Part shown: positions 1 to 5,021 of the stretch, piece by piece
Layout of the letters: every line of letters begins with the position of its first letter
Position numbering within the stretch: position 1 is the stretch's first letter
DNA from: a virus
Virus record (IMG/VR): IMGVR_UViG_3300001450_000339
Coordinates: 1-22,947 of that record
Reading direction: 5' to 3' (one strand)
DNA: 22,947 nt
Translations under genes and position numbers: made by a program
Notes under the pieces: generated by a model
What the model saw: only the letters and a program-made list of their open reading frames with translations
Database searches by the model: none
Told to the model about the DNA's origin: nothing

Positions 1-885
1 GATTGATGCAATAAGCTCGTCAAGCGTAGCGGCCTGACTTGCGTTTTGCTCTGCAAGCTCTGCCTTGGTGACCGTCTTAGCCTTAACCGCTGTACCAGAG
101 AATTGTTGCCCACGAAAAGCTGACATTGCTTTCCTGACGGCTTCCGACTGTTGTAATTCTCCGCTCTCCAACTCTTTTTGTTTACCACCGAAAACATAAT
201 TGAAAAACTCTATTTCTTGCTCACCCGTTAGAACCTTCTTTGCCATAGCTCGTGCAAAGGTCTCAAACTTTCCGAAGCTCTTTGAGCTGATGCCTAAAGC
301 TACCTTCATAGCCTCAGAGTCAAAAGGTACTTTATGATTATGTGTCACTATGTCGTTAGAGTTTTCTAAAGCTAGACGCATCGTGTTGTTACATACTACT
401 CTTATAGGCGTTAACAATGCGCTATTAGCATTCTGCCCAGTATGGGCAATGGTGAACAATAAGTTACTATTAACCTGATCGTCTTTTCCTAAGGTGAAGC
501 CTTCGTTAGTCGAGGCCATGCACCATACTTTTCTACCACCAAAAAGCGATCCGGCAGTATGAAGAAACATACTACCATTTTCGATGAACGGCTCAAAAAA
601 CATAAACAGATCATGATTCTGAAAAGGCTTATATTGAGTACCTGCTACATACTCCCCAAGGATTGAACCGTCATTTGATCGTTCAATAAAATGGGAATTA
701 GGCACTGGCTCACCTGCATGGGTTGAATGGTCTGGTGGGTAGTGGTTAGCCGTAAGCGAGACATCCCAATCTAGACCGGCCTTAGTCATCATTTCAGCCG
801 GTGTCATGTCGTTGGTAACTGGTATCCCAAGACCATGCCAAGGAACTTCTCCTACGTAGGCCATAGTTTCAATTTCATGTGACAT
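1..885 (-). CDS. DUF932 family protein, C-terminus cut by window edge
   Basis: The reading frame is open for 295 codons from ATG at 885 to the left edge without a stop, so the gene is partial. The start is supported by GGAG about 6 bases upstream, and the protein begins MSHEIETMAYVGEVPWHGLG. The early PWHGLG segment, the middle VVCNNTMRLAL segment and the helical, Lys/Glu-rich later part fit the DUF932 (phage/plasmid-like TIGR03299) family common in phages and plasmids. The biochemical role of the family is not established. The visible C-terminal part is Ala/Gln/Glu rich. It is the last visible gene of the leftward cassette and is separated from the gene upstream by 67 bases that hold a TTGACA inverted pair, so it may have its own promoter. 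Family assignment is from pattern memory and is fairly secure; any function is not. Confidence 0.82.
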   Translation of the reverse strand, partial: MSHEIETMAYVGEVPWHGLGIPVTNDMTPAEMMTKAGLDWDVSLTANHYPPDHSTHAGEPVPNSHFIERSNDGSILGEYVAGTQYKPFQNHDLFMFFEPFIENGSMFLHTAGSLFGGRKVWCMASTNEGFTLGKDDQVNSNLLFTIAHTGQNANSALLTPIRVVCNNTMRLALENSNDIVTHNHKVPFDSEAMKVALGISSKSFGKFETFARAMAKKVLTGEQEIEFFNYVFGGKQKELESGELQQSEAVRKAMSAFRGQQFSGTAVKAKTVTKAELAEQNASQAATLDELIASI

Positions 886-915: not shown

Positions 916-956
916 TTGACATTAACATAAGTTGCACAAAAGTTAGTGATTGTCAA
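916..956. promoter_or_regulatory. Face-to-face TTGACA pair, promoter or operator upstream of DUF932 gene
   Basis: TTGACA occurs on the plus strand at 916-921 and its reverse complement TGTCAA at 951-956. The minus-strand box fits a sigma70 -35 for the DUF932 gene, but the best -10 candidate is poor (ACTTAT at 932-927, 18-base spacing). The box overlaps the stop codon of the upstream 75-residue gene. The same pair with identical spacing occurs at 4981-5021, which favours a real control element. A repressor or activator dyad is an alternative to a promoter. Confidence 0.5.
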
Positions 957-1180
957 CTAAGATTACAGCGTTTTAAAAACATATTAGGCCTATATAGTTC
1001 ATTATCCTCTGAAAACATAACGTTAAGCTTATTTGCTATATTACGTCTTACTTTCTCATCATCAACGCTTGCCAAGATATCCGCTAACAATACGTAATGT
1101 CTCCGCTGAAACTTAGCTTTACCAAATATCTTTTCTGCTTTAGAATCGACTACTTCACTTAAATTAATCTTAACTGGCAT
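953..1180 (-). CDS. Small hypothetical protein (75 aa)
   Basis: I do not recognise a family with confidence. The protein is charged and soluble, starts MPVKINLSEVVDSKAEKIFG, and looks mostly helical with no membrane segment or Cys cluster. The start is backed by AGAGG about 8 bases upstream. It lies between the DUF932 gene and a 98-residue unknown gene on the same strand. Its stop codon sits inside the TTGACA box at 951-956. The KIFGKAKFQRRHYVLLADIL stretch resembles small conserved proteins I associate with marine phage genomes, but that is an impression only. Confidence 0.75.
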   Translation of the reverse strand: MPVKINLSEVVDSKAEKIFGKAKFQRRHYVLLADILASVDDEKVRRNIANKLNVMFSEDNELYRPNMFLKRCNLS

Positions 1181-1266: not shown

Positions 1267-1563
1267 TTAAACATATGTTACAGAAATACCTTCCTTAGAT
1301 TTGAAGCATTGTCTCCCCCATTTACTTTTACAGTACTCAGTAGCAGCTCGTTTATTCTTTAAAACCTCGACAACTGCCCACCGACCTATAACCCTATTAT
1401 TAGGGACTAGATCAAAAGTATCTGGTGTAAAATCAGAATTGTTGAAACATTGATAAAATAATTCTCTTATATTGTTTAGAGTTATCCCTTCCCATGCATA
1501 GAAATATTGCCAAACATTATATTTCCCATCTGATCTCTTTTTAACTTCTACGTTGATAGACAT
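1267..1563 (-). CDS. Hypothetical protein (98 aa)
   Basis: Family not recognised. It is a soluble protein rich in aromatic residues (several Trp and Tyr) with a basic C-terminal half and two Cys, starting MSINVEVKKRSDGKYNVWQY. A good ribosome site (AGAGGA about 9 bases upstream) supports the ATG at 1563. It is followed on its 3' side by 86 bases without an evident gene, before the 75-residue gene. Just upstream of its start lies the 24-base tandem array at 1581-1648, which is therefore the likely control region for this gene or for the block 953-1563. Confidence 0.75.
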   Translation of the reverse strand: MSINVEVKKRSDGKYNVWQYFYAWEGITLNNIRELFYQCFNNSDFTPDTFDLVPNNRVIGRWAVVEVLKNKRAATEYCKSKWGRQCFKSKEGISVTYV

Positions 1564-1580: not shown

Positions 1581-1648
1581 TTTTAAAGGGTTGACAAAAT
1601 CTTTTAAAAAAGGGTTGACAAAATCTTTTAAAAAAAGATTGACAAAAT
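1581..1648. repeat. 24-base tandem array carrying three TTGACA boxes
   Basis: The unit GGGTTGACAAAATC plus TTTTAAAAAA repeats at a period of exactly 24 bases: full copies begin at 1588 and 1612, a diverged partial copy begins at 1636, and a partial copy precedes 1588. TTGACA therefore occurs at 1591, 1615 and 1639 on the plus strand, which is opposite to the direction of all genes nearby. It could be a set of -35 boxes, a protein-binding array, or AT-rich iteron-like sites. The sequence shows the repeat directly; function is inference. Confidence 0.85.
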
Positions 1649-1661
1649 TATTACCGAAATA

Positions 1662-1674
1662 GGTTAGTTTAACC
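1662..1674. promoter_or_regulatory. 13-base dyad next to the tandem array
   Basis: GGTTA-GTT-TAACC is a perfect 5-base inverted repeat with a 3-base centre. It begins exactly 17 bases after the third TTGACA box, where the -10 element of a plus-strand promoter would be expected, and no good -10 is present there. This placement suggests an operator, but chance is possible for so short a dyad. Confidence 0.35.
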
Positions 1675-1785
1675 CTTCAAGTTATGTTGTGTACCACGTT
1701 CAGTGACAAGTTTCTCATCTAATATATCACGAACAGTTTCATAGAGCTTACAAGCTCTCTTAATCAAGGCTTTGTCAGTACACAA
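1669..1785 (-). CDS. Possible tiny gene (38 aa) with TTG start
   Basis: An open frame of 38 codons begins with TTG at 1785, overlaps the 3' end of the 75-residue membrane-protein gene and ends at TAA inside the 1662-1674 dyad. The product contains an amphipathic, charged stretch (KALIKRACKLYETVRDILDE) that reads like real helical protein. There is no ATG in this frame and the ribosome site is poor, so the start is uncertain (a second TTG lies further in). It would otherwise be an unexplained stretch of about 90 bases. I rate this as a candidate only. Confidence 0.3.
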   Translation of the reverse strand: MCTDKALIKRACKLYETVRDILDEKLVTERGTQHNLKG

Positions 1786-1991
1786 CTTACTACATAGCTC
1801 CCGTCTTCATTCTTCTGTTTAAACAAGATATAAGGTTTATAACCTTCTACCTGAGCAGGATACACTTTAGCGTTAGTCTGCACCACTGTACCAACTTGAT
1901 TACACTCATGGTATCCTACATACTTCCATTCGTTATCGTGATATTGATCTATTCCTACTATTAAGGATATTAATATTACTGCTATAACCAT
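1764..1991 (-). CDS. Small membrane-anchored or exported protein (75 aa)
   Basis: The first 13 residues (MVIAVILISLIVG) are strongly hydrophobic and are followed by a soluble domain with two Cys (one in GYHECNQVG, one near the C-terminus in VVSCVL). It therefore looks like a signal peptide or N-terminal anchor with a small periplasmic domain that could hold one disulfide. The hydrophobic segment lacks the usual positive charge in front, so signal-anchor is uncertain. AAGGAA 8 bases upstream supports ATG at 1991 even though this overlaps the preceding gene by 59 bases. Family not recognised. Confidence 0.65.
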   Translation of the reverse strand: MVIAVILISLIVGIDQYHDNEWKYVGYHECNQVGTVVQTNAKVYPAQVEGYKPYILFKQKNEDGSYVVSCVLTKP

Positions 1992-3016: not shown

Positions 3017-3472
3017 TTAAAATACATCCTTAAACTGCTTTATAGGTATGTAAACTACAGGCTCGACATCTTGCCAATCACCTCTATCTACTCTACCATT
3101 AAAACCTAATGAAAAATAATCATCTCTCTTTATACTATAATATCCTACTACATCTTTCCAACGTACTACTAGTTTAAAACCTACATTAAAGTTTCTAGTA
3201 TAGTTATAAGCACTCATCATTTTATCTGCTGAGAGCATATAACTATCATATTGACTTTTAGTGACAGTTCTATTTTTAATCTCTATAAAATTTATTATAT
3301 GCTTATCTTCATTTAGTTCAGCATAATCAAGTTTATATTTGACAGGTAACTTGACGAGTTCTCCTAAACCTAGTTTATCTTTGACAAAATCTATGGTAGA
3401 CTTCTCTCGTCCTCTATCTTCTTTTGTCTCGTACATTCTACGTCTAGCTGTCATGTTATTAGCTTTGTTCAT
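3017..3472 (-). CDS. Possible PD-(D/E)XK nuclease-fold protein (151 aa)
   Basis: After a basic N-terminus (MTARRRMYETKEDRGREKST), residues 49-66 show LDYAEL, a predicted beta strand, then FIEIKNR, matching the D-x(n)-E-x-K core of PD-(D/E)XK nucleases (Asp49, Glu64, Lys66), with an upstream Glu23 as possible first acidic residue. The C-terminal half has alternating hydrophobic strands. The size suits a small endonuclease, resolvase or VRR-NUC-like enzyme. The motif match is by eye and could be coincidental. The start at 3472 has AAAGGA 8 bases upstream. It abuts the EF-hand gene directly. Confidence 0.6.
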   Translation of the reverse strand: MNKANNMTARRRMYETKEDRGREKSTIDFVKDKLGLGELVKLPVKYKLDYAELNEDKHIINFIEIKNRTVTKSQYDSYMLSADKMMSAYNYTRNFNVGFKLVVRWKDVVGYYSIKRDDYFSLGFNGRVDRGDWQDVEPVVYIPIKQFKDVF

Positions 3473-4980: not shown

Positions 4981-5021
4981 TTGACAAATCATATAGTATC
5001 TGAATAGAAAATGGTTGTCAA
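4981..5021. promoter_or_regulatory. Divergence-point promoter region with face-to-face TTGACA boxes
   Basis: On the minus strand, TTGACA (5021-5016), a 17-base spacer and TACTAT (4998-4993, four of six consensus bases) make a good sigma70-type promoter for the leftward cassette. On the plus strand, TTGACA (4981-4986) with an 18-base spacer and TAGAAA (5005-5010) is a weaker promoter for the rightward replication operon. The two overlap, so only one polymerase can occupy the site at a time. The geometry equals that of 916-956. Confidence 0.6.

Follow-up and report, generated by a model that had tools for sequence, protein, structure and literature searches.

A polar array of direct repeats in front of a small phage gene, paired with a second array in related marine phages, and its possible role as a regulator site

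The strongest tandem repeat of the window, i.e. the whole 22,947-base IMG/VR record analysed here, is an array of direct repeats whose core is conserved in related phages. In these relatives the core, (A/T)(A/T)TTGTCA(A/G)C in the sense of the genes (it appears as a rightward TTGACA in window coordinates), occurs in two arrays per genome. One array, A1, ends 201–277 bp upstream of a DUF932 gene and the other, A2, is placed 1.3–3.1 kb beyond it on the upstream side. The units, mostly 2–5 per array, are oriented alike in both arrays with respect to the leftward genes. In the window, A2 is kept in front of the gene g98 while A1 is absent, together with its hairpin or GC-rich segment. We give about even weight to the reading that the array is one of paired polar arrays read by a regulator, which would control or punctuate two successive leftward transcription units.

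The window array lies at 1585–1648 (minus strand) and consists of three direct repeats with a period of 24, reading ATTTTGTCAA(C) in gene sense. Tandem Repeats Finder gave it 2.7 copies, a 95% match and a score of 114, the runner-up array of the window scoring 53. Its unit cores (1591–1600, 1615–1624 and 1639–1648, minus strand) carry the motif common to the arrays of 12 related loci. An earlier note on this DNA had described a 24-base period with three TTGACA boxes, each accompanied by an AT-rich core. The period was borne out, since TTGACAAAAT was found on the plus strand at 1591, 1615 and 1639, spaced by exactly 24 bp; a scan of the window yielded one further plus-strand copy at 3381. The AT-rich core (TTTTAAAA) is present after units 1 and 2 but not after unit 3, and the hexamer, although present, is only part of a longer conserved unit. 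When first-order Markov windows were generated, 1 in 200 gave a non-overlapping 10-mer three times within 100 bp. The repeat array is thus confirmed as an observation, the decisive evidence for it being its conservation in relatives and not this statistic.

As the same note had remarked, the boxes point rightward in all three units and the neighbouring genes (g98, g75a, DUF932, g75b and others) leftward. The 98-aa gene g98 (1267–1563, minus strand) has its start codon 21 nt past the array end. The 75-aa gene g75a (953–1180, minus strand) is located between g98 and the DUF932 gene (1–885, minus strand), which is cut by the window end and upstream of which relatives carry A1. On the other side, transcription passes the stop codon of g75b (1764–1991, minus strand) before it reaches the array. 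A likely early leftward promoter (TTGACA-17-TACTAT, 4993–5021, minus strand), with counterparts at L071:8905 and L082:9776, would feed the leftward block containing the array, and a promoter-like site (TTGACA-16-CAACTT, 929–956, minus strand) is found in the DUF932 leader with its −35 at −71. The window also encodes DNA polymerase A, a primase-helicase and a ribonucleotide reductase with B12-dependent-type domains. The GGTTA-GTT-TAACC dyad that had been singled out beside the array is exact (1662–1674), but as a signal it did not hold. Thirty perfect 5-3-5 dyads occur in the window (about 0.26 per 200 bp, i.e. chance level), so that this one is not notable, and its sequence was not found at the corresponding place in L071, L079 and L082. 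We consider it incidental.

Relatives were sought in IMG/VR, where they are uncultured marine phages, most of the contigs being fragments; they include contigs of 50.3 kb (G001), 49.1 kb (G002), 52.9 kb and 53.8 kb. An exact 22-mer scan of IMG/VR gave no match, g98 alone returned no loci from viral contigs, and a g98 profile returned three close relatives only. In L071, L079 and L082, arrays of the window core, with spacings of 12, 20 and 21 bp, stand in front of the g98 orthologue, and a second array with the same motif, position and orientation lies upstream of DUF932. A gene-blind IMG/VR scan for at least three TTGACAAAA led to L162, L164 and L167, which represent a different branch of these phages (PolA 54%, primase 60%, DUF932 48%) and carry an array of period 16 upstream of DUF932, again in the same orientation. 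A DUF932 profile search added L182–L193, in which the motif is present where upstream sequence suffices, namely in L182, L184–L188 and L190–L193. The array is thus present in relatives, whose complete lack of it the earlier note had named as counter-evidence. Its copy number varies as anticipated and the core is kept, but the spacing is not: across loci the units are 12, 14–21, 24, 25, 27 or 34 bp apart, although single arrays can be regular, as with the 24 bp of the window. The nearest cultured relatives by PolA are the pelagiphages HTVC104P, HTVC103P and HTVC115P (about 40–42%). A distant group IV of HTVC103P-related genomes, with hosts unknown, has been described (PMC8528129), and we infer that the window phage belongs to it.

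The motif is strongly polar and concentrated. In the 450 bp upstream of DUF932, TTGTCARC was found 31 times in sense versus 3 times in antisense, at a density of 5.3 per kb versus 0.26 per kb elsewhere (about 20-fold), and 10 of 13 loci have at least two sense matches; as the loci are related, these counts are not independent. None of 55 more distant DUF932 loci (38–45% identity) had a sense match. All eight TTGACAAAA of G002 fall in its two arrays, and in G001 all 12 TTGTCARC are on one strand, nine of them in A1 or A2. The unit search required T[TG]GTCA[AG], so that the conservation of the TTGTCA core is in part built in, but it left free the flanking positions, where A is preferred at −3 and C at +7.

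A1 and A2 of one genome share the same variant, TTTTGTCAAC or AAATTGTCAGCC. Both arrays read mainly TTTTGTCAA(C/T) in L071, L079, L082, L190, L191, L193 and L162, and mainly AAATTGTCAGC in L184, L185, L186 and L188; A1 of L182 reads TTTTGTCAGC, and its A2 is off the contig. That two arrays lying apart in a genome have changed together points to a shared reader and is what a single trans-acting factor recognising both would produce; as the loci are related, the independent cases of concordance are limited to perhaps five or six lineages. In L186 and L188, where the arrays overlap small ORFs, some of the spacings are not multiples of 3, which points to selection acting on the DNA and not on an encoded peptide.

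The perfect −35 hexamers, with TTGACA present three times on the plus strand, had suggested tandem or decoy rightward sigma-70 promoters giving rise to antisense RNA. This reading fails because no −10 box is conserved in relatives at 16–18 bp and because the AGC-type relatives read GCTGACAA, in which the TTGACA match is lost at its first base and the rest of the motif is kept. Moreover, the window offers no better −10 partner than TAGGTT, at 15 bp, and several of the top −10 scores correspond to the CAAAAT of a neighbouring repeat unit. We regard such promoters as very improbable. Of the earlier proposals, which also included a decoy, titration or repressor array and iteron-like sites, that of an antisense promoter accordingly finds no support; a protein-binding array is supported.

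Promoter-like sites in the sense of the genes are constant in position. The −35 of the best sigma-70-like site before DUF932 falls between −65 and −90 in 14 of 14 loci (13 relatives and the window), and eight loci have, within their two best, a sigma-70-like site 150–240 bp downstream of A2; in most relatives such a promoter follows each array at 130–240 bp. As the scores are moderate (the background 90th percentile is 8.6), this positional constancy weighs more than the scores themselves. Separately, back-to-back 12/12 sigma-70 matches were observed between DUF932 and the terminase-side block at L071:44–140 and L082:585–680 and are likely to be strong divergent promoters.

A hairpin or GC-rich segment lies between A1 and the DUF932 promoter in most relatives; the hairpin is strong in L071 (z −5.7 over 261 nt), L079, L082, L182, L190 and L193. 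At L071:3190–3330 (minus strand), a long hairpin is followed by a U-rich tail, with counterparts in L079 and L082 that keep the place while the sequence differs in each genome; it may be an intrinsic terminator or a structured RNA preceding DUF932. In the AT-rich phages L190, L191 and L192, a tract of GGCTC pentamers is found about 100–200 bp upstream of DUF932, its length differing between close relatives, and L082 and L079 have 22-bp and 13-bp repeats in its place.

One rival explanation is an RNA-level element, in which the sense transcript would present repeated AUUUUGUCAAC sites to a protein, for example as an antiterminator-loading or 3′-UTR element acting on the hairpin downstream of A1. 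The strict polarity relative to transcription would fit, as would the strong hairpins, several of them with U-rich tails, that A1 precedes in L071, L079, L082, L162, L190 and L193. On the other hand, L188 has no comparable hairpin (z about 0), the A2 units lie within translated-looking ORFs in L184–L188, and no terminator-like site was found after A2 in the window. We judge this explanation quite unlikely.

Short repeats associated with packaging or terminal repeats were also considered. Heptamer arrays occur near the genome ends of T7, and the two arrays described here are near the border with the terminase-side block. They are nevertheless tied to DUF932 and to the borders of transcription units rather than to terminase, and the window lacks A1, which makes a packaging role hardly probable.

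The favoured reading, an array of sites for a regulator, would involve an asymmetric DNA site of about 10 bp, (A/T)(A/T)TTGTCA(A/G)C in gene sense, recognised at both arrays by a sequence-specific factor. Polarity, combined with the overlap with stop codons or ORFs, suggests that the site acts as DNA and is read along the direction of transcription. Spacing this irregular speaks against cooperative binding in helical phase, and the factor, probably phage-encoded, may therefore bind as independent monomers. The arrays lie at the borders between successive leftward transcription units. In the typical case, the stop codon of one unit falls at or just before the array, and the promoter of the next follows 130–240 bp downstream. 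Occupancy of the arrays would control units that include the g98/GP88-like genes and DUF932. This could occur by polar blocking of elongation from upstream, a stoperator-like punctuation that we slightly favour, or through the array acting as an upstream regulator site. The sequences themselves establish the motif, its polarity, the pairing and placement of the arrays, the concordance of variants and the lack of A1 in the window, whereas protein binding, the identity of the binder and the sign of its effect are what we infer here. Contrary to this regulator reading, g98 begins within a few tens of nt after A2 in the window, L071, L079 and L082, so that the geometry of array, 170 bp and promoter does not hold in these four, and the window manages without A1. 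Taken together, the earlier interpretation is partly supported.

Most genomes with arrays have a g98 homologue close to them, but L186 yielded none and those of L190, L191, L193 and L162 match weakly, which also counts against the regulator reading. The gene has no Pfam or PDB relative, its AlphaFold models reached pLDDT values of 58 and 69, and two PDB fold searches with them gave no usable match. A blastn match to the 'DNA binding protein' of HTVC008M was considered for g98 and rejected, as it belongs to the phrog_624 gene (about 2400 in the window). Among the genes scanned (part of the gene set), no repressor with a helix-turn-helix was recognised, and an integrase gave no match above the cut-off.

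Similar-looking arrays elsewhere were examined as possible relatives. Other viral or bacterial TTGACAAAA arrays were set aside, most of them being paired −35 boxes, units resembling dyads or repeats whose context is unrelated. A more distant relative carries direct repeats of GCTAACAAAA, spaced by 17 bp, in its divergent early region (L093:8311–8392, and likewise L094); they adjoin a rightward gene, to which their orientation is opposite, and are possibly a diverged counterpart of the window array. Tandem dyad-like TTGACAAAAATGTCAA-type units of about 21–24 bp in unrelated viral contigs (L152, L154, L155, L165 and L156, L161, L166) resemble classical operator arrays, and a run of TTGACAAAACCGGCTTGG-type units at 18 bp is present in a bacterial genome, the Magnetococcales contig L179 (873–972, minus strand). 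The HTVC103P-type pelagiphages (HTVC103P, HTVC104P, HTVC115P) have their convergent arms arranged similarly; within the compared part of HTVC104P, neither a g98 or DUF932 homologue (gene comparison) nor a matching array was found.

Among known systems, the iterons of plasmid and phage origins (PMC4980987, PMC5043065) resemble the arrays in that one asymmetric site recurs in tandem, in direct orientation, within AT-rich DNA. An origin of this type would have a phage initiator bound to the repeats of A1 and A2, with promoter, GC-rich tract and hairpins as origin parts. The two clusters are close together and in one orientation, and next to A1 are a GC-rich, structured segment and tandem runs of short repeats, consisting of 22-mers in L082 and of GGCTC pentamers in L190. 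Unlike regularly phased iterons, however, the units are spaced by 12–34 bp across loci, with arrays 1.3–3.1 kb apart at the borders of transcription units; no initiator gene was recognised, the window lacks A1 and the hairpin segment, and the GC skew, which here tracks transcription, switches at the divergent promoter region and not at the arrays. We thus consider an iteron-type origin unlikely. The intergenic TAACTGA direct repeats of marine Beggiatoaceae (PMC4679880), with 169 sets in a bacterial genome and a proposed translational role, are likewise short sets of 2–6 copies upstream of start codons, proposed to be regulatory and with an unknown binder; their motif is another one, and the phages have two arrays per genome.

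The arrays offer an entry point to gene regulation in a group of marine phages that lacks cultured members: they provide a defined motif with two defined targets per genome, and their natural motif variants could serve as bait for the binding protein and, by array swaps, in tests of specificity. The regulator reading has a parallel in the stoperators of cluster A mycobacteriophages. The stoperator site of L5 presumably shares the string TGTCAA with the array motif and otherwise differs. Stoperators are 13-bp sites at more than 20 places across the genomes of phages such as L5 and TipsytheTRex (PMC9283540, PMC6550527); they are asymmetric, their orientation is tied to transcription, and reversal abolishes repression (PMC9283540). 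The two systems have in common short asymmetric sites in one orientation relative to transcription, a location in short intergenic spaces and genome-specific motifs, and monomer binding, known for stoperators, would tolerate irregular spacing. They differ in that no immunity repressor was recognised here among the genes scanned, and in that the marine-phage sites are clustered in two arrays instead of being dispersed as many single sites; owing to this clustering, membership of the stoperators is not claimed. It is conceivable, and we propose it tentatively, that the arrays belong to an undescribed phage system, in which a monomer-binding factor and its motif would co-evolve between genera and two clustered polar arrays would punctuate two unit borders. 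By analogy, and just as tentatively, such a system may be the clustered counterpart of stoperators in marine phages.
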